The notes under the pieces are model-generated. The model made no database searches. It saw nothing but the letters and a program-made list of their open reading frames with translations, and was not told the origin of the DNA. Positions 25,004-51,419 of a DNA stretch of 64,000 bases are shown here, piece after piece (the first letter of the stretch is position 1; every line of letters starts with the position of its first letter). Origin of the DNA: Aliidiomarina taiwanensis (GTDB lineage: Bacteria > Pseudomonadota > Gammaproteobacteria > Enterobacterales > Alteromonadaceae); contig NZ_PIPQ01000002.1 in the NCBI RefSeq assembly GCF_003987015.1, forward strand, positions 62,001-126,000. Direction: 5' to 3'. A program made the translations under genes and the position numbers.

Positions 25004-25017
25004 TTGATACAGATCAA
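25004..25017. promoter_or_regulatory. FNR box of the narG promoter
   Basis: TTGATACAGATCAA is a perfect FNR consensus (TTGAT-N4-ATCAA). A TACCAT at 25035-25040 can serve as the -10, placing FNR near the class II activation position for narGHJI. It lies 74 bases before the narG start. Confidence 0.88.
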
Positions 25018-25090: not shown

Positions 25091-28000
25091 ATGAGTCATT
25101 TACTCGATAAACTGCGCTTCTTCAAGCAAAAGAAAGAATCCTTCTCTGAAGGCCATGGGGTTCTAACTGATGAAGATCGTAGCTGGGAACAAGGTTATCG
25201 CCAACGCTGGCAACATGACAAAATTGTCCGTTCAACCCACGGGGTGAACTGTACAGGGTCGTGTAGCTGGAAAATATACGTAAAAGACGGGTTAGTTACC
25301 TGGGAAACCCAACAAACGGACTACCCACGTACACGACCAGACCTACCAAACCACGAGCCACGGGGCTGCCCGCGAGGCGCAAGCTACTCTTGGTATATTT
25401 ATAGCGCCAACCGCTTAAAGTACCCGCAAATGCGGAAGCATTTAATGAAGCTTTGGCGTGAAGCAAAAGCCGAACATAGCGACCCTGTTGAAGCCTGGGC
25501 TTCTATTGTGAACGACCCAGCAAAAGCGAAAAGCTACAAAGAGCGCCGCGGTTTAGGTGGCTTTGTGCGTGCTTCATGGGACGAAGTGAATGAGCTTATT
25601 GCCGCTTCTAACGTGTACACCACCAAAGAATTTGGCCCAGACCGTGTAACTGGCTTCTCGCCCATTCCTGCTATGTCCATGGTGTCTTACGCTGCTGGCG
25701 CCCGCTACCTTTCCTTAATAGGTGGTAACTGCCTGAGCTTCTACGATTGGTACTGTGACTTACCGCCAGCCTCGCCTCAAGTGTGGGGTGAGCAAACGGA
25801 CGTACCTGAGTCAGCCGACTGGTATAACTCCAACTACATTATTGTGTGGGGCTCGAACGTACCACAAACCCGTACACCAGACGCGCACTTCTTAACGGAA
25901 GTTCGTTACAAGGGTACTAAAACCTGTGTGATTACTTCGGACTATTCTGAAGCCTCTAAATTCGGTGATACCTGGTTAGCTCCGCGCCAAGGTACAGACG
26001 CCGCGTTGGCTATGGCGTTTGGCCACGTTATCTTGAAAGAATTCTATGTTAACCAGCAAAGTGCGTACTTCCACGACTATGTACGTCGTTACACTGACAT
26101 GCCCATGTTGGTCATGCTGGATAAAGAAGGCGACCACTTAACGCAAGGACGTTTCTTACGTGCCGCCGACTTAGTGGACAACCTAGGTGAAGACAACAAC
26201 CCAGACTGGAAAACCATTGCCATAGACAGCGACGGTGACCGTTTAGTTAGCCCAAATGGTGCCATTGGTTACCGTTGGGGTGAAAAAGGGAAGTGGAACC
26301 TAGAGCAAAAAGACAAAAACGGCGACGTAAATCTGCACTTGTCATTGAAAGACACAGCCGATGAAGTTGTGGATGTTGCCTTCCCATACTTCGGCGGTAA
26401 GCCACACGAGTATGAGTACTTCCAACATACAGACCACGACGAAATTCAGATGCGCCGTATTCCAGCCAAGCGTGTGGAATTAGCGAATGGTGAAACGGCT
26501 TTAGTTGCAACCGTGTTCGACTTACTACTTGCTAACTACGGTGTGGACAACGGGATAAACGACCCGAACCGCGCCCAAAGCTATGAAGACAGCGTGCCGT
26601 ACACACCTGCATGGCAAGAAGCTATTACAGGTGTAAACCCAGCCGACGTTATTCGTGTGGCCACCGAGTTTGGTCGTAACGCCGACAAAACCAAAGGTCG
26701 TTCTATGGTTATTGTGGGTGCAGCACTGAACCACTGGTACCACATGGACATGAACTACCGTGGGCTCATTAACATGCTCATGATGTGTGGTTGTATTGGT
26801 CAAAGTGGTGGTGGTTGGGCGCACTATGTGGGCCAAGAAAAACTACGTCCTCAAACGGGTTGGCAGCCATTAGCCTTCGCCCTTGACTGGCAGCGCCCGC
26901 CACGTCACATGAATGGTACGTCTTTCTTCTACAACCATTCGAGCCAATGGCGCTATGAAAAACTCGAAATGACCGAACTTATTTCGCCATTAGCGAATCC
27001 GAATAAGTGGAAGTCGAGCATTCTGGACTACAACATTAATGCCGAGCGTATGGGTTGGTTACCGTCTGCACCTCAGCTAAACACCAACCCGCTGCACGTG
27101 GCAGAAGCGGCTAAAAAAGCCGGCATGAGCTCGAAAGACTATGTGGTGGATCAGCTGAAAAACGGTGGATTAAAGTTTGCTGCTGAACAACCTGAAAACC
27201 CGCAAAACTTCCCGCGCAATATGTTTGTATGGCGTTCGAACTTGCTCGGTTCCTCGGGTAAAGGCCACGAGTATATGCTGAAGCATTTATTAGGTACAAA
27301 GCATGGCCTGCTTGGGAAAGACCTTGGCGAATTTGGTGGTCAGAAGCCACAAGAAGCTGAGTGGCAAGACGAGGGTGCGGAAGGCAAGGTGGACCTATGG
27401 GTAACACTCGACTTCCGTATGTCCACCACTTGCTTGTACTCAGACATCGTCCTGCCAACGGCGACCTGGTACGAAAAAGACGACATGAACACCTCGGACA
27501 TGCACCCATTCATTCACCCATTAACAGCGGCTATCGACCCAGTATGGGAAGCGCGTAGCGACTGGGAAATCTTTAAAGGCATTGCCAAAGAATTCTCGCG
27601 GGTCAGTGAAGGTCATTTAGGTGTTGAAACAGACGTAGTGACGGTACCTATTCAGCATGACACCCCAGGAGAAATTGCCCAGCCGTACGGCGTGGCAGCC
27701 TGGTGGAAAGGCGAATGTGAAGCCATTCCAGGTGAAACCATGCCAAATATCGTGGAAGTAGAGCGCGACTACCCGAACACGTACCAACGCTTTACCTCGC
27801 TCGGGCCACTGATGGACAAGTTAGGTAACGGTGGTAAAGGCATTAGTTGGAACACGCAAGCGGAAGTTGACTTCTTAGGTGAACTAAACCGTAAGCACGT
27901 GGAAGAAGGCGCGAACAAAGGCCGCCCAATTATCGACTCGGCCATTGACGCGTGTGAGGTCATATTATCACTGGCGCCAGAAACAAACGGCCACGTAGCG

Positions 28001-28810
28001 GTGAAAGCATGGGCTGCACTGGGTGAGTTTACCGGTCGCGACCATACCCACTTAGCTAAGCCGAAAGAAGACGAAACCATTCGCTTCCGCGACATAGTGG
28101 CACAACCACGGAAAATTATTTCGTCGCCTACTTGGTCGGGCTTAGAAGACGAACACGTGTCGTACAACGCGGGTTATACCAACGTACACGAGCTTATCCC
28201 GTGGAGAACCGTAACCGGGCGTCAGCAGTTCTACCAAGACCATGAGTGGATGCGCGACTTTGGTGAAAACCTCTGTGTGTACAAGCCGCCCATTAACCTG
28301 AAAACGGTAGCGCCGGTTCTGAACAAGAAGCCAAACGGCAATAAAGAAATTGTGCTGAACTGGATTACACCGCACCAGAAGTGGGGTATTCACAGTACCT
28401 ACTCGGACAACTTGCTCATGCTGACACTTTCCCGTGGTGGCCCCATTGTGTGGCTCTCGGAAATTGACGCAAAAGCGGCAGGCCTCGAGGACAACGACTG
28501 GATTGAAGTATTTAACGTCAACGGTTCCATTGCAGCACGAGCGGTAGTATCTCAGCGTGTACCTGAAGGTATGAGCATGATGTACCACGCTCAGGAACGG
28601 ATTGTGAACATTCCAGGCTCTGAAATGACAGGCGGCCGGGGTGGTATTCACAACTCAGTAACGCGCGCTGTTATGAAACCAACCCACATGATAGGCGGAT
28701 ATGCGCAACAAAGTTACGGCTTCAACTACTACGGAACCGTAGGTTGTAACCGCGACGAGTTTGTCATTGTACGCAAGATGGACAAAGTTGATTGGCTCGA
28801 TACGGATTAA
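25091..28810 (+). CDS. narG: Respiratory nitrate reductase alpha subunit NarG
   Basis: Catalytic subunit, cytoplasm-facing, reducing nitrate to nitrite with bis-MGD and the FS0 [4Fe-4S] cluster. The N-terminus shows HGVNCTGSCSWKIYVKDG (the His/Cys FS0 ligands) and RGCPRGASYSWYIYS. YIIVWGSNVPQTRTPDAHF carries the Asp that ligates molybdenum in E. coli NarG. 1239 aa (E. coli 1247). No signal peptide, as for cytoplasmic NarG. Followed by a stable hairpin before narH. Confidence 0.98.
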   Translation: MSHLLDKLRFFKQKKESFSEGHGVLTDEDRSWEQGYRQRWQHDKIVRSTHGVNCTGSCSWKIYVKDGLVTWETQQTDYPRTRPDLPNHEPRGCPRGASYSWYIYSANRLKYPQMRKHLMKLWREAKAEHSDPVEAWASIVNDPAKAKSYKERRGLGGFVRASWDEVNELIAASNVYTTKEFGPDRVTGFSPIPAMSMVSYAAGARYLSLIGGNCLSFYDWYCDLPPASPQVWGEQTDVPESADWYNSNYIIVWGSNVPQTRTPDAHFLTEVRYKGTKTCVITSDYSEASKFGDTWLAPRQGTDAALAMAFGHVILKEFYVNQQSAYFHDYVRRYTDMPMLVMLDKEGDHLTQGRFLRAADLVDNLGEDNNPDWKTIAIDSDGDRLVSPNGAIGYRWGEKGKWNLEQKDKNGDVNLHLSLKDTADEVVDVAFPYFGGKPHEYEYFQHTDHDEIQMRRIPAKRVELANGETALVATVFDLLLANYGVDNGINDPNRAQSYEDSVPYTPAWQEAITGVNPADVIRVATEFGRNADKTKGRSMVIVGAALNHWYHMDMNYRGLINMLMMCGCIGQSGGGWAHYVGQEKLRPQTGWQPLAFALDWQRPPRHMNGTSFFYNHSSQWRYEKLEMTELISPLANPNKWKSSILDYNINAERMGWLPSAPQLNTNPLHVAEAAKKAGMSSKDYVVDQLKNGGLKFAAEQPENPQNFPRNMFVWRSNLLGSSGKGHEYMLKHLLGTKHGLLGKDLGEFGGQKPQEAEWQDEGAEGKVDLWVTLDFRMSTTCLYSDIVLPTATWYEKDDMNTSDMHPFIHPLTAAIDPVWEARSDWEIFKGIAKEFSRVSEGHLGVETDVVTVPIQHDTPGEIAQPYGVAAWWKGECEAIPGETMPNIVEVERDYPNTYQRFTSLGPLMDKLGNGGKGISWNTQAEVDFLGELNRKHVEEGANKGRPIIDSAIDACEVILSLAPETNGHVAVKAWAALGEFTGRDHTHLAKPKEDETIRFRDIVAQPRKIISSPTWSGLEDEHVSYNAGYTNVHELIPWRTVTGRQQFYQDHEWMRDFGENLCVYKPPINLKTVAPVLNKKPNGNKEIVLNWITPHQKWGIHSTYSDNLLMLTLSRGGPIVWLSEIDAKAAGLEDNDWIEVFNVNGSIAARAVVSQRVPEGMSMMYHAQERIVNIPGSEMTGGRGGIHNSVTRAVMKPTHMIGGYAQQSYGFNYYGTVGCNRDEFVIVRKMDKVDWLDTD

Positions 28811-28817
28811 TGCCAGA

Positions 28818-28843
28818 GGGCACAAGCCTTTCTGCTTGTGCCC
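28818..28843 (+). repeat. Intra-operon hairpin between narG and narH
   Basis: GGGCACAAGC-CTTTCT-GCTTGTGCCC: a perfect 10-bp stem with a 6-base loop, starting 8 bases after the narG stop. No T-run follows, so it is more likely a stability or processing element, or a weak terminator, than a full stop. Confidence 0.65.
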
Positions 28844-28893
28844 AACCTTGCATTTAACGAGTTACGGGTTCACCAAATTTTAGGAAGACGATT

Positions 28894-30429
28894 ATGAAAG
28901 TTAGAGCTCAGATTGGCATGGTGTTAAATCTGGACAAGTGTATCGGCTGCCATACTTGCTCCATCACCTGTAAGAACGTCTGGACCTCGCGAGAAGGGGT
29001 TGAGTACGCATGGTTCAACAACGTTGAAACCAAACCAGGTGTAGGTTTCCCGAAAGAATGGGAAAACCAAGAGAAGTGGAACGGTGGTTGGGAACGCACG
29101 AAAAAAGGCAAGTTGCGCTTAAAAATGGGTGGCAAGCTACGCATTTTAGCCAACATTTTTGCAAACCCAGATTTACCGCAAATCGACGACTACTACGAGC
29201 CGTTCGATTTTGACTACCAGCACCTACACACGGCCGGCGACAAAAAACACCAGCCGGTCGCACGCCCGCGGTCTTTGATCAGCGGTCAGCGTATGGAAAA
29301 AATCGAATGGGGTCCGAACTGGGAAGAAATTCTTGGTACCGAGTTCGAAAAGCGGAAAAAAGACGTAAACTTCAATGAAGTTGTGCAAAAAGACATTTAT
29401 GGACAGTTTGAAAAAACCTTCATGATGTACTTGCCACGTTTATGTGAACACTGCTTAAACCCAGCCTGTGTGGCGGCGTGTCCTTCTGGCGCTATTTATA
29501 AGCGTGAAGAAGACGGCATTGTTCTGATTGACCAAGACAAGTGTCGTGGTTGGCGTATGTGTGTGTCGGGCTGCCCTTACAAGAAAATTTACTACAACTG
29601 GAAAACAGGTAAGTCAGAAAAATGTACCTTCTGTTATCCACGTATTGAAGCCGGTATGCCCACCGTATGTTCAGAAACATGCGTAGGCCGTATTCGTTAC
29701 CTAGGTGTTTTATTGTACGACGCAGACAAAATTGAAGCGGCTGCAAACACACCAAACGAAAAAGACCTGTACCAAGCACAGCTCGATATTTTCCTCGACC
29801 CGTTTGACCCGAAAGTGATTGAAGCAGCGAAGAAAGAAGGTATTGCTGACAACTGGCTGAAGGCAGCCCAGCGGTCACCTGTGTATATGATGGCCATGGA
29901 CTGGAAAGTAGCCCTACCGCTTCACCCAGAGTACAGAACCTTACCTATGGTGTGGTATGTACCGCCATTGTCACCAATTCAAAGTGCCGCCGAAGCAGGG
30001 CATGTGGGTATGAACGGTGAAATACCTGACTTGAAGTCGCTGCGTATTCCCATGCGCTACTTAGCCAACTTGCTCACCGCGGGTGACGAGGCCCCAGTAG
30101 AGCGTGCGCTTGAACGTATGATAGCCATGCGTGCCTACAAACGTGCACAGCAAGTAGACGGTGTGGAAGACTTTGAGGTGTTAAAGCAGGTGGGATTAAC
30201 ACCGAATCAAGTGGAAGAAATGTACCGCTACATGGCACTGGCTGACTTTGAAGACCGATTTGTTATACCAACCAGCGCCCGTGCTTACGCTGAAAACGCG
30301 TATGGCCTGAAAGGGGAGTGTGGTTTCTCATTTGGTAATGGCTGTGGTGGTGGCGACAGCGACTTGAACCTCTTCGGGGGCGACAAGAAAGGCGTTCGCA
30401 AAGTCATACCTGTTGTGATGAAGGACTAA
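28894..30429 (+). CDS. narH: Respiratory nitrate reductase beta subunit NarH
   Basis: Electron-transfer subunit with four iron-sulfur clusters between NarI haems and NarG. Cys groups: CIGCHTCSITC, CEHCLNPACVAACPSGA, CRGWRMCVSGCPYKK (the Trp marks the [3Fe-4S] cluster) and CTFCYPR/CSETCVGRIRYLG. 511 aa (E. coli 512). AGGAAG precedes the ATG by 7 bases. Confidence 0.98.
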   Translation: MKVRAQIGMVLNLDKCIGCHTCSITCKNVWTSREGVEYAWFNNVETKPGVGFPKEWENQEKWNGGWERTKKGKLRLKMGGKLRILANIFANPDLPQIDDYYEPFDFDYQHLHTAGDKKHQPVARPRSLISGQRMEKIEWGPNWEEILGTEFEKRKKDVNFNEVVQKDIYGQFEKTFMMYLPRLCEHCLNPACVAACPSGAIYKREEDGIVLIDQDKCRGWRMCVSGCPYKKIYYNWKTGKSEKCTFCYPRIEAGMPTVCSETCVGRIRYLGVLLYDADKIEAAANTPNEKDLYQAQLDIFLDPFDPKVIEAAKKEGIADNWLKAAQRSPVYMMAMDWKVALPLHPEYRTLPMVWYVPPLSPIQSAAEAGHVGMNGEIPDLKSLRIPMRYLANLLTAGDEAPVERALERMIAMRAYKRAQQVDGVEDFEVLKQVGLTPNQVEEMYRYMALADFEDRFVIPTSARAYAENAYGLKGECGFSFGNGCGGGDSDLNLFGGDKKGVRKVIPVVMKD

Positions 30430-30433
30430 TCAA

Positions 30434-31174
30434 ATGAAAATTGCACAAGTCATTTCCTTATTACTCGACTATCCAACAGACGACCTGCTGGAAGCGAAGC
30501 AGCCAATTGTTGAAATTATTTCAGCATCGCAGCTGGCGCCAGAGCAGAAAGAAGCCATGTTGGAGTTTGTTGAGAGTCGCTTTAATGGCGACCTTATGGA
30601 CTGGCAGGCCGAGTATAACGGCCTGTTCGAGCGGGGCCGCTCCCTTTCTTTGCTGCTGTTTGAGCATATTCATGGTGAGTCGCGCGACCGCGGCCAAGCC
30701 ATGGTGAACTTATTAAAACAGTACAAAGAAGCAGGCCTAGAAATAGGTGTCCGTGAGCTACCTGACTACCTGCCTTTGTATCTTGAGTTTTTATCGACCC
30801 AAGGCGATGAGAACCTGGTGCTCGGTTTGCAAGAAGTTGCGCATGTACTGGCAACACTTTCAGCACGCTTAGAGCAGCGTGAAAGCAACTATGCCGCATT
30901 AACGAATAGCTTACTGAATTTGTCGGGCGTGCAGGTCGATATGGCGGATATTCATAGCCAAATTGCCAATGAAGAGCGTGACGACACCAGCGAAGCCTTA
31001 GACAAGGTATGGGAAGAGGAAATGGTGACCTTTGGTCCTGACTCCAGCAATGACGGTTGTAGCTCGGGTACGAGCAAGCCTTCGGAAAGTCAGCGTAAAG
31101 ACCAATATGTCCCCATTCAATGGGCCGATGAGCTGCTGAAAAGTAGTGAGTTAGCAGAGAAGAGAGGAAACTAA
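30434..31174 (+). CDS. narJ: Nitrate reductase assembly chaperone NarJ
   Basis: System-specific chaperone needed for molybdenum cofactor insertion into NarG and membrane docking. The TorD/NarJ helical pattern is seen in LLLDYPTDDLLEAK and ELPDYLPLYLEFLS. 246 aa (E. coli 236). Begins 4 bases after narH. Confidence 0.95.
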   Translation: MKIAQVISLLLDYPTDDLLEAKQPIVEIISASQLAPEQKEAMLEFVESRFNGDLMDWQAEYNGLFERGRSLSLLLFEHIHGESRDRGQAMVNLLKQYKEAGLEIGVRELPDYLPLYLEFLSTQGDENLVLGLQEVAHVLATLSARLEQRESNYAALTNSLLNLSGVQVDMADIHSQIANEERDDTSEALDKVWEEEMVTFGPDSSNDGCSSGTSKPSESQRKDQYVPIQWADELLKSSELAEKRGN

Positions 31175-31176
31175 TC

Positions 31177-31866
31177 ATGAATTTAGATCTGTTAATGTTC
31201 GGGATCTACCCTTACATCGCCTCTGTTGTGTTCTTCTTCGGGAGTGCGCTTCGCTACGACAGGGAGCAATTCACCTGGAAAGCGCAGTCAAGCCAAATGC
31301 TTAGTACCCGCAACTTTCGTATTGCCAGCGTGCTCTTTCACGTGGGTATTATTATGATATTTGCGGGTCACTTTGCCGGCTTGGTTATTCCGTATGAAGT
31401 GTGGAACCTGCTTGGGATCACCTTGGCTCAAAAGCAAATGATCGCTATGGGTGTGGGTGGTTTCTTCGGTGCCCTTTGCTTCATTGGTTTAACTATGCTG
31501 GTCTGGCGTCGTCTATTCAACCCGCGCGTGCGGGCGAGTAGCTCTGTCATGGACACACTTATTCTGCTGCTTATTTACTGGCAGTTGATTCTGGGAATCA
31601 TTACTATTTTTGTGTCGACCGGACACATGGACGGTCATGTCATGAAAGACTTAATGAGCTGGTCGCGTTACTTGTTAACCTTCCGCCCAGGTGAAGCGGT
31701 AGAGTTCATTTCCGAAGTACATTGGATTTATAAAGCCCATGTCTTCTGGGGTGTCACCTTGTTTGTGCTCTTCCCATTCAGCCGTCTTGTACATATTTGG
31801 AGCGTGCCAGTGAAGTATGTTGGCCGTAAACACCAAATTGTACGTCGTCGCTTTCCTAACGCCTAA
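31177..31866 (+). CDS. narI: Respiratory nitrate reductase gamma subunit NarI
   Basis: Di-haem b quinol oxidase subunit anchoring NarGH to the inner membrane. Five hydrophobic segments; haem-ligand histidines are placed as in E. coli (LFHVGIIMIFAGHFAGL and the paired His in VHWIYKAHVFWG). 229 aa (E. coli 225). Two bases after narJ. Confidence 0.97.
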   Translation: MNLDLLMFGIYPYIASVVFFFGSALRYDREQFTWKAQSSQMLSTRNFRIASVLFHVGIIMIFAGHFAGLVIPYEVWNLLGITLAQKQMIAMGVGGFFGALCFIGLTMLVWRRLFNPRVRASSSVMDTLILLLIYWQLILGIITIFVSTGHMDGHVMKDLMSWSRYLLTFRPGEAVEFISEVHWIYKAHVFWGVTLFVLFPFSRLVHIWSVPVKYVGRKHQIVRRRFPNA

Positions 31867-32822: not shown

Positions 32823-32836
32823 TTGATTTAGATCAA
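32823..32836. promoter_or_regulatory. FNR box upstream of nrdG-nrdD
   Basis: TTGATTTAGATCAA, a perfect FNR consensus, 82 bases before the nrdG start. TATGCA (32863-32868) is a possible -10 about 33 bp downstream of its centre. Confidence 0.88.
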
Positions 32837-46117: not shown

Positions 46118-47662
46118 TTATTGCGAGTCTTTCATGCCAAGCCTTCGGGCAAGCTTGTGCAAATTACTCGGGTCTACTTGCAATATTCGTGCTGCTTGTG
46201 CCCACGACTGGTTGGTTTGCAGTAACGCTTCTTGAATAAGTTGGCGCTGCGTTGTTTCTACGGCATCTCGCAATGGCCGCAGGGCCGGTACTACTGCTTG
46301 CTGGCGCAGCGGTGAAGGCATAGCCTCAGGCCCTTGCACCTGGGTGTTTAGGCCGTCAAAAAAGTCCGGCGTTAAGGTAACAATGTCAGTGCGAACTTCG
46401 CCCAGGCTTAAGGCTTTTATAGCAGCGCGGCTTATCACGTGCTCTAACTCGCGCACATTGCCGGGCCACGGGTAATTTAACAACATTTGCTCGGCCGACG
46501 CACTGAGCCGTAGGCTACGAAAACCAAGGCGGGTGCGGTTTTGTTCTAAGAAAAAGCCCGCTAATAATAAAATGTCATTCCCCCGTTGGTTTAAGGGGGG
46601 AATATGTAAGGGGTACACAGAAAGACGGTGGTACAGGTCGGCCCGAAACTCTTTGGTTTTTATTTGCTCTTGAAGTTTACGGTTCGTTGCGGCCACTATG
46701 CGCACATCCACATGGCGCACTTTGTCGGTTCCTAACCGTTGCACTTCACCGTTTTGCAATACCCGCAGCAACTTCGCCTGAATACTTAAGGGCAGCTCAC
46801 CCACTTCATCTAAAAAAATAGTACCACCGTGGGCGCTTTCAAAACGTCCTTGACGCTCACTGGCAGCACCCGAAAAAGCGCCTTTGCTGTGCCCAAACAG
46901 CTCGCTCTCCGCAAGGCTTTCCGGCAAGGCGGCGCAGTTTACATACACCATGGGTTTGTGCGCACGACGCGACTTGGCATGCAGTTGGCGAGCAAATAAC
47001 TCTTTGCCGGTCCCTGTGTCGCCAAGCAGCAACACCGGCAAGTCTGACTGAGCCACCACACGAAGCTCTTCCAAAACGCTTTGTATGGCTTCGCTTTGGC
47101 CAATAATGTCGGCCCCGACTTGCAGCTTCGACTCCATTTGTAAGTCGTCCTGACGGCCCTGGCGTAAAGCTTTGTTGTCTTGCTCAAGGCGCGTCATACG
47201 AAGCATGGCTTCCATGACCAAGGCGCAGCTCTGCAGTTGTATGCGGTGCTGTTCGGTAAAGGTGCCGGGCTCGAGGGCGTCTAAAGTTACAGCCCCCCAT
47301 AAAGCACCTTCAACAAATAAGGCCATGCCCATGCAGTCGTGTACGGCTAAATGTTGATTGGGTAAGGCTTCAATTAATCCGTCGTAGGGGTCGGGCAGGG
47401 GGCTGTCGGGCTCAAAGCGTATGGCTTCTCGGCTGCGACACAGCATGGCTAAACGTGGGTGTTGGGCCAATTGAAAGTGCCGGCCAAGGGCGTCTTTCAC
47501 CAAACCTTGCTGAGCAATCGGTCGTAAGCTGTCTTCTTCCTTTCGAAGGAGCACCACGGCACCGCAGGAAAAATAATGGCGCAAGCTGGTGACTAACTTT
47601 TGTAAACGCACCGGGCCTGGCAAGTCGGTCACGAGATCTGCAATCAACGTGGTGTGCAGCAT
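46118..47662 (-). CDS. norR: NO-sensing sigma-54 activator NorR
   Basis: The N-terminal GAF domain senses NO through a mononuclear iron; the ligand region is intact (IRFEPDSPLPDPYDGLIE, HDCMGMALF, TLDALEPG). The central AAA+ domain has Walker A GDTGTGKELFARQ and Walker B GGTIFLDEVGEL; the sigma-54 loop reads GAFSGA instead of the usual GAFTGA. A Fis-type HTH (WAQAARILQVDPSNLHKLARRLG) ends the chain. 514 aa (E. coli 504). The start codon is contiguous with NorR box 1, which suggests autoregulation. Leads an operon with DUF454 and moeB. Confidence 0.93.
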   Translation of the reverse strand: MLHTTLIADLVTDLPGPVRLQKLVTSLRHYFSCGAVVLLRKEEDSLRPIAQQGLVKDALGRHFQLAQHPRLAMLCRSREAIRFEPDSPLPDPYDGLIEALPNQHLAVHDCMGMALFVEGALWGAVTLDALEPGTFTEQHRIQLQSCALVMEAMLRMTRLEQDNKALRQGRQDDLQMESKLQVGADIIGQSEAIQSVLEELRVVAQSDLPVLLLGDTGTGKELFARQLHAKSRRAHKPMVYVNCAALPESLAESELFGHSKGAFSGAASERQGRFESAHGGTIFLDEVGELPLSIQAKLLRVLQNGEVQRLGTDKVRHVDVRIVAATNRKLQEQIKTKEFRADLYHRLSVYPLHIPPLNQRGNDILLLAGFFLEQNRTRLGFRSLRLSASAEQMLLNYPWPGNVRELEHVISRAAIKALSLGEVRTDIVTLTPDFFDGLNTQVQGPEAMPSPLRQQAVVPALRPLRDAVETTQRQLIQEALLQTNQSWAQAARILQVDPSNLHKLARRLGMKDSQ

Positions 47663-47675
47663 GGTAAAAAGTACC
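47663..47675. promoter_or_regulatory. NorR box 1 (GGT-N7-ACC)
   Basis: GGTAAAAAGTACC, immediately upstream of the norR ATG. It fits the GGT-N7-ACC enhancer element described for Ralstonia eutropha norA/norR. Confidence 0.75.
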
Positions 47676-47681
47676 TCGCAA

Positions 47682-47694
47682 GGTTAAATGTACC
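47682..47694. promoter_or_regulatory. NorR box 2 (GGT-N7-ACC)
   Basis: GGTTAAATGTACC, 19 bp from box 1. Eleven of 13 bases are shared with box 3 or better. Confidence 0.78.
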
Positions 47695-47705
47695 CGAATT
47701 CTTAG

Positions 47706-47718
47706 GGTTAAAAGTACC
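47706..47718. promoter_or_regulatory. NorR box 3 (GGT-N7-ACC)
   Basis: GGTTAAAAGTACC, 24 bp from box 2. With boxes 1 and 2 it completes the three-site enhancer that NorR needs to form its active ring. Confidence 0.78.
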
Positions 47719-47739
47719 ATGTTCGCCAGCAGGCCACCA

Positions 47740-47755
47740 TACCCTAACAGGGGTA
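47740..47755. promoter_or_regulatory. Weak NarL-like 7-2-7 palindrome
   Basis: TACCCTA-AC-AGGGGTA: right heptamer perfect, left 5 of 7. It lies between the NorR boxes and the sigma-54 promoter and could add nitrate control or be coincidental. Confidence 0.3.
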
Positions 47756-47771
47756 ACTGGTTTTTTTCAGG

Positions 47772-47788
47772 TTGGCACAGCGTTTGCT
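47772..47788 (+). promoter_or_regulatory. Sigma-54 promoter of the hemerythrin gene
   Basis: TTGGCAC-N5-TTGCT with GG (47774-47775) and GC (47786-47787) separated by exactly 10 bases, matching the -24/-12 consensus. It lies 56 bp downstream of NorR box 3. Confidence 0.88.
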
Positions 47789-47866
47789 GTAGTCATTGCA
47801 CTAAGGCAACAGCAGAACAGTCTGCACAAGCCAAAACCACAACCAGTACTTAAAAAGGAAGCCGTT

Positions 47867-48400
47867 ATGCAATTTAGTGAAGCGACACAACAAGGGTTAA
47901 ACCGTAGCCAACACCAGTGGTTAAAAATAAGCACTAACGAAGTGGTGGACTACGTTCTTGAACGGTTTCATGCCGTGCACCGTACCCAATTCCCAGAAGC
48001 TATTGCGTTAGCGCGCAAGGTGGAAGAAGTGCATGCGGACGAACCTCTGTGCCCAACGGGTTTAGCTGACCACCTGGCCTTTATGTTTCAAGAGCTAGAA
48101 GGACATATGCTGAAAGAAGAGCAAATTCTGTTCCCCATGTTACGAAATAACACCCACCCGCAAGGGCCCATTATGGTCATGGAGTCGGAACATGAAGAGC
48201 ACGAAGTAGCCATACAGAAAATTGCAAAGCTGAGCCATAACTTCAGCATGCCGGACGACGCCTGTGGCACGTGGAGGCACTTAATCAGTTTAGTGCGTGA
48301 AATATGTGATGATCTGCAAGATCACATTGAATTAGAAAACAATATTCTCTTTGTACCTGAAGAGGTACGCGCAGGAAATTGCTGTGGTGGCTGTCAGTAA
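47867..48400 (+). CDS. Hemerythrin-domain NO-response protein (NorA/DnrN/YtfE-like)
   Basis: Di-iron protein that lowers free NO or repairs NO-damaged iron-sulfur clusters in related bacteria. 177 aa: helical bundle with HLAFMFQELEGHMLKEEQILFPML, ESEHEEHE and DHIELENNILF as iron-binding His/Glu. The N-terminal ScdA segment of full YtfE is missing and the tail ends NCCGGCQ, an extra cysteine cluster. AAGGA precedes the ATG. It is the only gene behind the NorR-dependent promoter, as norA is in Ralstonia; no norB follows. Confidence 0.88.
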   Translation: MQFSEATQQGLNRSQHQWLKISTNEVVDYVLERFHAVHRTQFPEAIALARKVEEVHADEPLCPTGLADHLAFMFQELEGHMLKEEQILFPMLRNNTHPQGPIMVMESEHEEHEVAIQKIAKLSHNFSMPDDACGTWRHLISLVREICDDLQDHIELENNILFVPEEVRAGNCCGGCQ

Positions 48401-48427
48401 AGGTATGCAGCTTAAGTGGGCCCTAAC

Positions 48428-48443
48428 TACCTCTGTGTGAGTA
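48428..48443. promoter_or_regulatory. NarL/NarP 7-2-7 site upstream of the DGC gene
   Basis: TACCTCT-GT-GTGAGTA. Left heptamer perfect, right 6 of 7 (TACTCAC read back), gap 2. Its centre is 29 bp upstream of the FNR box centre. Confidence 0.6.
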
Positions 48444-48457
48444 CTGGGCCCGTTGGT

Positions 48458-48471
48458 TTGATTTGAATCAA
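48458..48471. promoter_or_regulatory. FNR box upstream of the DGC gene
   Basis: TTGATTTGAATCAA, a perfect FNR consensus. TACACT (48493-48498) is a good -10 at near class II spacing. Confidence 0.88.
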
Positions 48472-48535
48472 TGTGAATCGCTGCTAACGGCTTACACTGA
48501 AGCCTTACTCTCAAGTTAGTGTGTAAGGAGCGACC

Positions 48536-48955
48536 GTGAGTCAAGCGAAAACAGAAAAGCCATTGGTTTATTCATGCTCGGGCTGTTCGAATGTAGCGCA
48601 GCTGGCAAACGACATTGCACTTTGGCTACGAGACCGTGACGTGGCTGAAATGTCTTGTATTGCTGGTGTCGGGGGGGACGTAAAGCCCTTGGTGCGAGTG
48701 GCACAGTCGGGGCGTCCTATTCTGGCCCTTGACGGCTGCCCGCTCAATTGCGTCAAGCAGTGTTTAAAGCGCCAAGGGGTAGAGCCAACTTGGCATATCC
48801 AACTTTCTGACTTAGGCATTAAGAAGCGCGACGGCGTAAGCTGTACACTTGAAGAAATGTATCGGTCGTTAGAACACACGCATAAAGTTTTAGGCCTCGA
48901 GCCGACATTTGACTACAAGGAGCAACCTGGGCTAGCGTGTAACGACTCTTGTTAA
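48536..48955 (+). CDS. DGC-domain putative zinc-binding protein
   Basis: 139-aa cytoplasmic protein with nine or more cysteines: YSCSGCSNVAQLAND, MSCIAGVGG, LALDGCPLNCVKQCL (the DGC motif) and CNDSC at the end. The family is labelled putative zinc-binding and has no proven function. GTG start with AAGGAG five bases upstream. It has its own FNR and NarL sites and precedes a SirB2 gene by 15 bases, so both are probably made during anaerobic nitrate respiration. Confidence 0.85.
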   Translation: MSQAKTEKPLVYSCSGCSNVAQLANDIALWLRDRDVAEMSCIAGVGGDVKPLVRVAQSGRPILALDGCPLNCVKQCLKRQGVEPTWHIQLSDLGIKKRDGVSCTLEEMYRSLEHTHKVLGLEPTFDYKEQPGLACNDSC

Positions 48956-48970
48956 TAAGAAGGGTCTCCC

Positions 48971-49342
48971 ATGGAATGGTATAGCGGTATAAAGTTCGTT
49001 CATGGTTTCACAATTCATATTTCTATTACGTTTTTTGTTCTGCGCTTTTTAATGGACTCCCAAGGGTTTACCGTATGGCGAAATCCTCCTTGGAAATACC
49101 TGCCACATATCAACGACAGTCTGCTATTGCTAAGCGCACTGGCCTTATTAAAAATTACCGGCTGGACCCTGTTTGTGCATTTTTGGATTACCGTAAAAGT
49201 ACTGCTGGTGGTGGCTTACATTGTGATGGGGTGGTTTGCCATGCGGCAGAATTTAAAGCCCGTATACCGATGGATTAGTTTTACGCTTGCGCTTGGCTTA
49301 TTTGCTCTTATTTACCTGTTCGCTGTTAATAAGTTTATGTAA
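48971..49342 (+). CDS. SirB2 family membrane protein
   Basis: 123 aa with four hydrophobic segments. YSGIKFVHGFTIHISITFFVLRF and KYLPHINDSLLLLSALAL are the SirB family blocks with conserved His residues. Function unknown; I recall members next to denitrification genes. Cotranscribed with the DGC gene. Confidence 0.88.
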   Translation: MEWYSGIKFVHGFTIHISITFFVLRFLMDSQGFTVWRNPPWKYLPHINDSLLLLSALALLKITGWTLFVHFWITVKVLLVVAYIVMGWFAMRQNLKPVYRWISFTLALGLFALIYLFAVNKFM

Positions 49343-49356
49343 CTGTTCCTATTAAA

Positions 49357-49398
49357 AGAAAAAACTCGCTAAGGCGTTGTGCCGTTAGCGAGTTTTTT
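49357..49398. terminator. Bidirectional Rho-independent terminator
   Basis: ACTCGCTAA pairs with TTAGCGAGT, flanked by an A-run on the left and a T-run on the right. It ends the DGC-sirB2 transcript and, on the other strand, the S9 peptidase transcript. Confidence 0.9.
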
Positions 49399-49412
49399 AT
49401 GGGCTTTATGCG

Positions 49413-51419
49413 TTATTTGCTAATTGCAAACTCCAGCTCGTGCGGAGGCTGGCCTTCTTTTTGATCTTGCAAATACCATTTCATCCAGCGCTCCATGCGG
49501 TAGGCATAGTCAAGCTGTGCCGCAGAACGCTTGTTGCCATGGCCTTCACCTGGGTAAGTGACCAGGCGCACAGGCACATTGCCGTGGACTTTCAAGTAAC
49601 GGTACAGCTCCATGGACTGGCTTGGGTGCACACGGGTGTCTTCTTCTCCGTGCATAATCAAAATCGGGGTGCGACCTTGTTCGGCCCAGTAAATGGGGCT
49701 GCGCTCTAAGTACCACATCCACTTATCCCACGGGTAGCTGCGGGCATGCACTAGGTTCATTTCGTTTGGTATATCGGTGGTACCGAACTTCGACAGGTTG
49801 TTGCTAATACCCACAAACATAACGCTTGCAGCAAAGTGTTCGGTTTCTTTCGTTGCACCCCATGCAGAGGCATAGCCGCCATACGAGCCACCGGTAATAC
49901 CTACACGGTCTTCGTCAGCAAAACCAATAGCAACCAAATGCTTTTTCGCATCTACTATGTCGTCGAACTCTTTCCCTGCATAGTCGTTTTGGCTTAGTTT
50001 AGAAAACTCAACACCACGACCTGTGCTGCCTCGGTAGTTCGGGAAGAAGGTGGCAAAGCCTTCCTGCGCCATGTACCAAGTAGGGGTAGAGTAACGGTCA
50101 TTCCAGCCATGACGAATGTGCGACTCTGGGCCGCCATGAATGGCCATAATAACGGGAACTTGCTGACCTTCACGGTAATTCAGTGGGTACACCAAAATAC
50201 CTTCAATTTCTAAACCGTCGCGGGCTTGGTAAGTAATCACTTCGCTGCGTGGCTGCTGTGCGTTGCGAACCCAAGCGTTCGAGTCGGTTAAGCGAGTTAA
50301 CTCAGTGCCTCTCAGCGTAAAGGCTTCGTTCGGATGGGCCGGGCTGTTGGCAAGCAAGGTGATGGTGCCGTCGGAAGCCATGTTGCCAAAGCTGAGCGCA
50401 TTCACTTTACCCGTTGGCAGTAGGGTGGTTTGTTGGTTGGTACGCACATTGTGCTGCACTATGGTGGTTTCCGTGTTGACAGCGGCTAACCACACCAGGG
50501 TGTCGTTGTCTTGCCAAAGAATGTCTTGCACATGGCCTAGGAAGTTCGGCAGTAACTGCTGCACCGAGCCGTCACGCAGGCTTGCTAAAAACAAGCGACC
50601 ACGGGCCGGGTCGTGCTTATCTTCTGCGCCCACAATGGCCAAGCGAGAGCCGTCTTTGGAAAAGGCTGCATTTCCAAGCTTGCCTTCGGTTTGCATGCGT
50701 ACAACTTCGCTGCCGTCTTGGTTCAGCAGCACATACTGGCTGCTCATGAGGTTGTCGTCAACCCGAGCGCTTGGTGCGGCACGCACCAGCAGCTGGTTGG
50801 TGCCAGGGCGGAAGCTTAATGAATGCACTTGTTCATCAAATGCGACAGGGGTGACTTGGTTGTCTTCGAGGCTCAGCAAGAACGCCTTGGTCATGGCCAC
50901 GTTCTCTTCGTATACGTTGGCACGGAAACCGTGGGCTGAAAGCTCTTTCGAGTTGCTCTTTTGCTTTTCCTTCGCGCGAAACGCAATGGTGTCGCCTGCG
51001 TCATTAAAAGCATAGCTGAGAATGGCTGTTTCATGTTCAAGCACACGCTCGGACTCACCACCGTCAACAGGAATGCGGTACAAGCTGGTGTGCTTGTCAC
51101 CTTCGCGTTTCGCTAGGTAATACAGCATGCTGCTGTCGGGGCTAAAAGCAAGGTGGCGAATACGTACGTCGCCGGTAATAAATTGGATGGTTTCACCCTC
51201 GCTGTTTATCAAAAACAACTCAATGTACGAGCTGCCATCTTTTTCTTGCAGCGGGTTTCGTGGGCGAATTTTGGTATAGGCAGTTAAATTCCCGTCACGG
51301 GTGGTGATTACTTGGTTTACACGCTGGGTTGTTACCACATCTTCTAGGGTAACATTTGCAGCATGCGCAGCGCTTATCGAAAAAATGAAAGCGCTTAGCC
51401 AGACAGTAAATCGGGCCAT
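49413..51419 (-). CDS. Secreted S9 family prolyl oligopeptidase-type peptidase
   Basis: Signal peptide (MARFTVWLSAFIFSISAAHA-A), a beta-propeller N-terminal region (about 30-390) and a C-terminal alpha/beta hydrolase. Nucleophile Ser in GITGGSYGGYASA, Asp in MHGEEDTRVHP, His in GEGHGN. The ATG at 51419 is preferred because AGGAG lies directly before it and inside the first six codons of a longer reading (51434). 668 aa. Acts on peptides in the periplasm or outside; precise specificity unknown. Confidence 0.92.
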   Translation of the reverse strand: MARFTVWLSAFIFSISAAHAANVTLEDVVTTQRVNQVITTRDGNLTAYTKIRPRNPLQEKDGSSYIELFLINSEGETIQFITGDVRIRHLAFSPDSSMLYYLAKREGDKHTSLYRIPVDGGESERVLEHETAILSYAFNDAGDTIAFRAKEKQKSNSKELSAHGFRANVYEENVAMTKAFLLSLEDNQVTPVAFDEQVHSLSFRPGTNQLLVRAAPSARVDDNLMSSQYVLLNQDGSEVVRMQTEGKLGNAAFSKDGSRLAIVGAEDKHDPARGRLFLASLRDGSVQQLLPNFLGHVQDILWQDNDTLVWLAAVNTETTIVQHNVRTNQQTTLLPTGKVNALSFGNMASDGTITLLANSPAHPNEAFTLRGTELTRLTDSNAWVRNAQQPRSEVITYQARDGLEIEGILVYPLNYREGQQVPVIMAIHGGPESHIRHGWNDRYSTPTWYMAQEGFATFFPNYRGSTGRGVEFSKLSQNDYAGKEFDDIVDAKKHLVAIGFADEDRVGITGGSYGGYASAWGATKETEHFAASVMFVGISNNLSKFGTTDIPNEMNLVHARSYPWDKWMWYLERSPIYWAEQGRTPILIMHGEEDTRVHPSQSMELYRYLKVHGNVPVRLVTYPGEGHGNKRSAAQLDYAYRMERWMKWYLQDQKEGQPPHELEFAISK

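Follow-up and report, generated by a model that had tools for sequence, protein, structure and literature searches.

The 64,000-nucleotide stretch of Aliidiomarina taiwanensis considered here (contig NZ_PIPQ01000002.1, positions 62,001 to 126,000; "the window") contains two divergent genes, norR and a hemerythrin gene which, judged from its translation and modeled structure, encodes a RIC/YtfE/NorA protein. The spacer between them carries three GGT-N7-ACC boxes followed by a sigma-54 promoter. Very probably this is a nitric oxide (NO) switch of the Cupriavidus necator norR-norA type, with NorR driving the RIC gene. An earlier note on this DNA had proposed a NorR/sigma-54 switch in front of a hemerythrin gene, and the identity of NorR, the box array, and the promoter all bear this out.

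46118–47662, minus strand: norR, 514 amino acids, a GAF – AAA+ sigma-54 activator whose C-terminal part aligns to C. necator NorR (NCBIfam NF003451, Pfam)
47663–47675, no strand assigned: NorR box 1, GGTAAAAAGTACC (GGT-N7-ACC pattern)
47682–47694, no strand assigned: NorR box 2, GGTTAAATGTACC (GGT-N7-ACC pattern, 19 from box 1)
47706–47718, no strand assigned: NorR box 3, GGTTAAAAGTACC (GGT-N7-ACC pattern, 24 from box 2)
47772–47788, plus strand: sigma-54 (-24/-12) promoter, TTGGCACAGCGTTTGCT (pattern match)
47867–48400, plus strand: RIC-type di-iron hemerythrin, 177 amino acids, a NorA/YtfE/DnrN relative without ScdA_N (PF01814)
48380–48397, plus strand: CCGGCQ tail motif of RIC (family conservation)

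Regulator, boxes, and promoter

The product of norR scores 701 bits against the NorR equivalog model NF003451 (cut-off 476) and has the Pfam domains GAF and Sigma54_activat, which together identify it as NorR. It aligns with C. necator NorR along its length; the stretches LPDPYDGLI and HDCMG are common to the two, and both have GAFSGA as the sigma-54-contact loop, for which the usual motif is GAFTGA. An rpoN gene is present in the genome.

The spacer has the elements of a NorR-dependent promoter, three tandem GT-N7-AC enhancers and a -24/-12 promoter, at the positions given in the earlier note (boxes beginning at 47663, 47682, and 47706). Single GGT-N7-ACC boxes are at chance level, with 14 in the window against 14.57 expected from shuffles, so a lone box proves nothing. 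A perfect match to the exact 19/24 triple, however, is found at a single place in the genome (2,529,473 bases); when up to three mismatches are allowed there is a single further match, carrying all three, and a reversed-pattern control gave one and two matches on the two strands. Chance as the origin of the boxes was rejected for the spaced array, though not for single boxes. In 8 of the 14 window boxes, the three target boxes among them, A or T occupies both position 6 and position 7.

The sigma-54 site is the sole exact match in the window. With two mismatches allowed the count is 10, where 11.7 would be expected, and relaxed sites of this kind are by themselves weak evidence. The promoter had been called perfect, which is true of its core; relative to the long consensus YTGGCACGrNNNTTGCW it differs at one base. 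A terminator-like hairpin with a T run lies at 47740–47755, between box 3 and the promoter and reading toward the RIC gene (3 such sites against 2.3 expected).

Box 1 abuts norR, whose ATG occupies 47660–47662 on the minus strand, the adjacent base being the start of the box. A sigma-70 promoter driving norR was considered and rejected: no match to the pattern was found in 47600–49500, against 2.1 expected from shuffles.

Conservation of the switch

A search of 395 genomes of the family gave a RIC match at E 1e-15 in 87, and all 87 loci were analyzed. RIC is divergent from norR in 68 of these. Named relatives in which such a pair occurs include A. quisquiliarum, A. haloalkalitolerans, Nitrincola alkalisediminis, and Alkalimonas amylolytica. 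Conservation of the boxes in relatives had been suggested as a check, and it holds: none of the 68 divergent spacers has fewer than two GGT-N7-ACC boxes (2 of 13,600 shuffled spacers reach that number), 36 have three, and a GT-N7-AC triple spaced 17–20/24–25 is present in 47 (8 of 13,600 shuffles). All 172 GGT boxes in these spacers have A or T at positions 6 and 7, although the search pattern does not demand it. A sigma-54-like site, by a looser pattern, is found in 59 of the 68. The contact between box 1 and the norR start is also shared: a box stands at that offset in 47 of the 68 pairs as GT-N7-AC, and in 34 as the full GGT-N7-ACC.

Beyond the family, a class-wide RIC search at E 1e-20 matched 6 of 369 genomes, the A. 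taiwanensis genome included. A second class of NorR loci (L041–L058, norR relatives with 43–49% identity) mostly has AGTCAT-N-ATGACT-like boxes, with no RIC within 1.5 kb upstream of any locus; at L042 the divergent gene appears, by eye, to be for a NorV-type flavodiiron protein. Box type and target class perhaps go together.

The RIC protein

Only PF01814 was detected in the hemerythrin protein; the N-terminal ScdA_N domain with its DfCCgG motif is missing, and residue 15 aligns with YtfE residue 63–64. The curated models all score below their cut-offs (YtfE 188.9 of 254 bits, RIC 147.9 of 204.7, DnrN 141.1 of 300), leaving the curated equivalog score short of assigning the protein. With the YtfE and RIC models, though not with DnrN, the low score may be due in part to the absent N-terminal domain.

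The assignment is carried instead by structure and ligands. The closest solved relative by sequence is E. coli YtfE (143.6 bits, the match stopping at residue 163, ahead of the tail), and YtfE is also the top Protein Data Bank match to the AlphaFold model (mean pLDDT 91.4; TM 0.82 on the query). Residues H35, H80, E84, H109, H153, and E157 align with YtfE H84, H129, E133, H160, H204, and E208, the six di-iron ligands named in PMC9268430. The residues at these positions are invariant in 89 of 89 rows of a family alignment; two of these rows are the window protein and one is C. necator NorA. The protein thus has the hemerythrin domain and the six His/Glu residues of a predicted RIC, and it is the one RIC match in the genome.

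Output of the switch

The earlier note had also stated that no NO reductase gene follows the hemerythrin gene, and that is the case: where norB follows norA in the C. necator norAB arrangement, genes for a DGC-domain protein and a SirB-family protein follow here. Elsewhere in the genome, a 29-contig assembly rated 99.97% complete, no match was found for a globin (Hmp), Hcp, or a qNor/NorB-type reductase, nor for NorV beyond a partial 18.8-bit match over 62 positions; the sole COX1-family match is CcoN-like, from a reading of its translation.

The picture in other genomes is different. A survey of 80, comprising 17 of the same genus (8 with RIC) and 63 other RIC genomes and so covering 71 of the 87 RIC genomes, gave a strong qNor match in 47, a weak match only in two, and a globin in seven. 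Within 400 bases upstream of the 47 qNor genes there are at least two in-register NorR boxes in 44 cases and the full triple in 31 (5 and 0 of 9,400 shuffled controls, respectively), with a sigma-54-like site in 24. The qNor genes without NorR boxes are those of G014, G616, and G787. By the patterns used, 1500 bases upstream of the G014 gene (L204, C6) are without NorR, FNR, or NsrR boxes; in this the gene differs from qNor in G001 and G006. The common predicted NorR regulon in this sample is therefore RIC plus qNor, the second part of which is missing here, and in A. taiwanensis the regulon seems to have shrunk to the RIC promoter alone. The proposal that the hemerythrin is the only output stands for this genome as far as it was searched, but is not the rule, since 44 of the 47 qNor genes in relatives carry NorR boxes of their own. 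Thirteen of 52 divergent norR-RIC genomes, in six genera, retain the pair with no strong qNor match and no globin; of these G675 has a weak 26% qNor match and G561 and G784 are less than 90% complete, Hcp and NorV having been searched in the A. taiwanensis genome only.

In G006 and G001 qNor lies about 15–16 kb from norR, past the same narK-to-nrdD gene block, at the place where the window has narGHJI-like genes (25091–31866, read from translations). The narGHJI position is occupied in G001 by a gene between nrdG and qNor (L203:14228-15460) whose product, by eye, looks secreted or located in the outer membrane. This is perhaps a spot where nitrogen-oxide enzymes get swapped.

Proposed mechanism and alternatives

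With narGHJI-like genes in the window, exposure to nitrite and NO is to be expected. NO would bind to non-heme iron in the GAF domain of NorR, freeing the AAA+ domain; a NorR hexamer on the three boxes would then loop to sigma-54 polymerase at 47772–47788 and open the RIC promoter. From the position of box 1 at the norR start, NorR probably limits its own synthesis. The most likely role of RIC is to bind NO or to protect iron-sulfur proteins during nitrate respiration, and the lower free NO that resulted would feed back on NorR, as proposed for NorA. The sign of this loop depends on the chemistry: a RIC that binds NO would damp its own induction, while one acting as a nitrite reductase would amplify it. 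The first, a sink for NO, appears likelier than an NO maker, as none of the four other NO-removing enzymes was found.

Several observations count against this account of the switch. The sigma-54 pattern is unmatched in 9 of the 68 divergent spacers, and the in-register triple is missing from 21, of which 18 keep the outer two boxes with a degenerate middle one. Three Aliidiomarina genomes (L098/G016, L099/G013, L100/G015) have a tailed, ScdA_N-less RIC with no norR match in the 5-kb flanks, so NorR is not needed for RIC everywhere. The whole-genome triple search (2.53 Mb) used one exact spacing, flexible spacing covering 1.21 Mb; in that flexible scan, of 1,211,187 bases including the window, a single additional partial triple came up, which has two full boxes but lacks a sigma-54 site. 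No convincing terminator was detected after the RIC gene, the hairpin there being no better than shuffles (z -0.03). As to the protein, the NO reductase activity of E. coli YtfE is described as negligible (PMC9268430, PMC9052748), which makes catalytic removal of NO by RIC doubtful, and a sink would have to act by binding; YtfE is moreover described as making NO from nitrite, an activity that would turn the feedback to the opposite sign.

That last point leads to an alternative in which the switch is the same but RIC is an NO-making nitrite reductase, like YtfE and ScdA: in a positive loop, a little NO would induce more NO from nitrite, reporting nitrite to NorR. Reduction of nitrite to NO is described for YtfE and Staphylococcus aureus ScdA (PMC9052748, PMC12412097), and is said to be carried out in vitro by C. 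necator NorA; the narGHJI-like genes could supply the nitrite. However, the enzymes that act as partners in the E. coli model by removing the NO (Hmp, Hcp, NorV, or a NorB-type reductase) were not found in this genome; the reported effect of NorA is to damp NorR rather than raise it; the window protein is without ScdA_N; and the YtfE reaction is given as very slow beside those of heme and copper nitrite reductases (PMC9268430). An NO-making RIC is considered unlikely.

The NorR-driven transcript could also be longer, the real output being one operon in which RIC is followed by the genes for the DGC-domain protein and the SirB-like membrane protein (the two at 48536–49342). The RIC and DGC genes are on the same strand, 135 bp apart, with only the weak hairpin noted above between them, and the gene order is retained in L001. 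The gap also contains a perfect FNR/DNR-type box:

48458–48471, plus strand: FNR/DNR-type box, TTGATTTGAATCAA, before the next gene, for a DGC-domain protein (pattern; 3 in the window against 0.05 expected)

This is a likely promoter element of the DGC gene's own, and in L002, L003, L005, and L017 the DGC gene stands beside nnrS and not behind RIC. The longer operon is accordingly rated doubtful, and the box probably marks the limit of the NorR-driven unit. That the pair is a relic of little function, drifting since the loss of qNor, is most improbable: although qNor is absent here and present in G014, G006, and G001, whose norR genes are the three most like this one within the genus, and 9 of 17 genomes of the genus have neither a RIC nor a qNor match, the boxes, promoter, NorR reading frame, and RIC ligand residues are all intact, and the 13 genomes without strong qNor match and globin described above keep the pair.

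Perfect TTGAT-N4-ATCAA boxes in the window are at 48458–48471, 25004–25017, and 32823–32836, before the DGC gene, narG, and apparent anaerobic ribonucleotide reductase genes, respectively. The DGC-domain protein (48536–48955) ends in a two-cysteine tail of its own, CNDSC. The surroundings of norR include DUF454, MoeB/ThiF, NnrS, and two NarK-like genes.

The role of RIC is disputed across the papers cited, between iron-sulfur cluster repair, NO soaking, and production of NO from nitrite. With nitrate reductase genes, a dedicated and presumably NO-responsive promoter, a single RIC match, and no Hmp, Hcp, NorV, or NorB-type enzyme found that could mask its effect, A. taiwanensis should offer a cleaner test of RIC than E. 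coli or Ralstonia.

The C-terminal cysteine tail

A feature absent from the earlier note is that this domain-reduced RIC ends in a conserved cysteine tail. CCG[GST]C[QH] forms the C-terminus of 79 of the 87 family RICs (CCGSCQ in 50, CCGGCQ in 22, CCGSCH in six, CCGTCH in one). The linker between it and the last conserved motif is 9–16 residues long and occurs as 65 distinct sequences; that it drifts right up to an unchanging end argues for a function of the tail. The tail is present in every one of the 68 norR-divergent RICs and in 11 of the 19 remaining family RICs. The Nitrincola RIC has it in the form CCGGCGG; it is absent from the six Burkholderiales-type-locus RICs aligned (L008–L013), from L038, and from a Vibrio fluvialis plasmid RIC whose N-terminal part is degenerate. 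While the switch is known, no description of the tail was found in searchable paper text, a search that misses motifs given only in figures and covers few subscription journals; none of the papers listed contains CCGGC.

The tail occurs together with an N-terminal CCGG in 45 rows and without it in 34, and eight have neither. These eight rule out the tail as a universal replacement for ScdA_N, although G029 and G787 among them do have a CC pair missed by the CCGG test. An apparent restriction of the tail to genomes lacking norB, seen in the first 23 proteins, was refuted by five tailed RICs with qNor in their flanks (G522, G550, G488, G540, G512) and by qNor in 39 of 52 divergent norR-RIC genomes. 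In a tree from a short alignment (147 columns) the group with tail and no CCGG needs three changes, of which strongly supported branches force just one; whether ScdA_N was lost a single time is thus undecided. AlphaFold pLDDT is below 50 in the tail (residues 174–177 here, 214–225 of the Alkalimonas protein), so its placement cannot be read from the models.

In YtfE the ScdA_N cysteine pair (Cys30/31) is described as helping electron transfer to the iron site in nitrite reduction (PMC9052748), while in S. aureus ScdA the cysteines are not strictly required (PMC12412097). That the tail acts as an electron relay is a guess; binding of a metal or Fe-S cluster, or a redox switch of oligomerization, are alternatives. 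Conceivably, the flexible C-terminal CCG[GS]CQ first appeared in RICs still equipped with ScdA_N, replaced the electron-feeding cysteine pair of that domain, and permitted loss of the domain in Idiomarina-like genera, leaving a tail-driven, NorR-switched RIC as the main NO defense of a nitrate respirer without the four standard NO-removing enzymes searched for. Taken whole, this scenario is speculative and on balance unlikely. The strict conservation of the tail on a domain-reduced RIC nevertheless poses a simple structure-function question.

Comparison with known systems

No relevant paper on Aliidiomarina and nitric oxide, or on Idiomarina and NorR, was among the matches listed, and the closest comparisons are more distant. 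On megaplasmid pHG1 of C. necator (Ralstonia eutropha) H16, norR and a RIC gene are likewise divergent, with three GGT-N7-ACC boxes and a TTGGCAC element between them. The boxes there are offset by 9, 28, and 54 from the start of norR, a spacing of 19/26 compared to 19/24 in the window, and the -12 element does not fit the sigma-54 pattern used. In C. necator norA is followed by norB (qNor), which is not the case here, and NorA carries ScdA_N, including DFCCGG, but lacks the cysteine tail.

The earlier note's contrast with Ralstonia is valid for C. necator and fails for Ralstonia solanacearum GMI1000, where RIC (the norA of its norR-norA pair) is described as the sole protein-coding gene of the NorR regulon (PMC9045102). 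R. solanacearum differs in having NorB and HmpX under other control, whereas neither a NorB-type enzyme nor a globin was found in the A. taiwanensis genome. In Pseudomonas stutzeri the RIC-family gene dnrN is predicted to lie behind NorR sites and a sigma-54 promoter; hmp is a second NorR target there, with predicted sites at -192/-173/-148, spaced 19/25 (PMC1274295). Given these two cases, the circuit as such is a known one.

For the protein, E. coli YtfE provides the best solved-structure match, with a di-iron hemerythrin domain and conserved ligand positions; it differs in having ScdA_N with Cys30/31 (PMC9052748) and in its described control by NsrR (PMC9268430, PMC1274295). The Neisseria gonorrhoeae DnrN/RIC resembles the window protein in keeping the di-iron center without ScdA_N (PMC9268430). 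The DnrN model covers 157 positions, and its match to the window RIC stops at residue 163, ahead of the cysteine tail.
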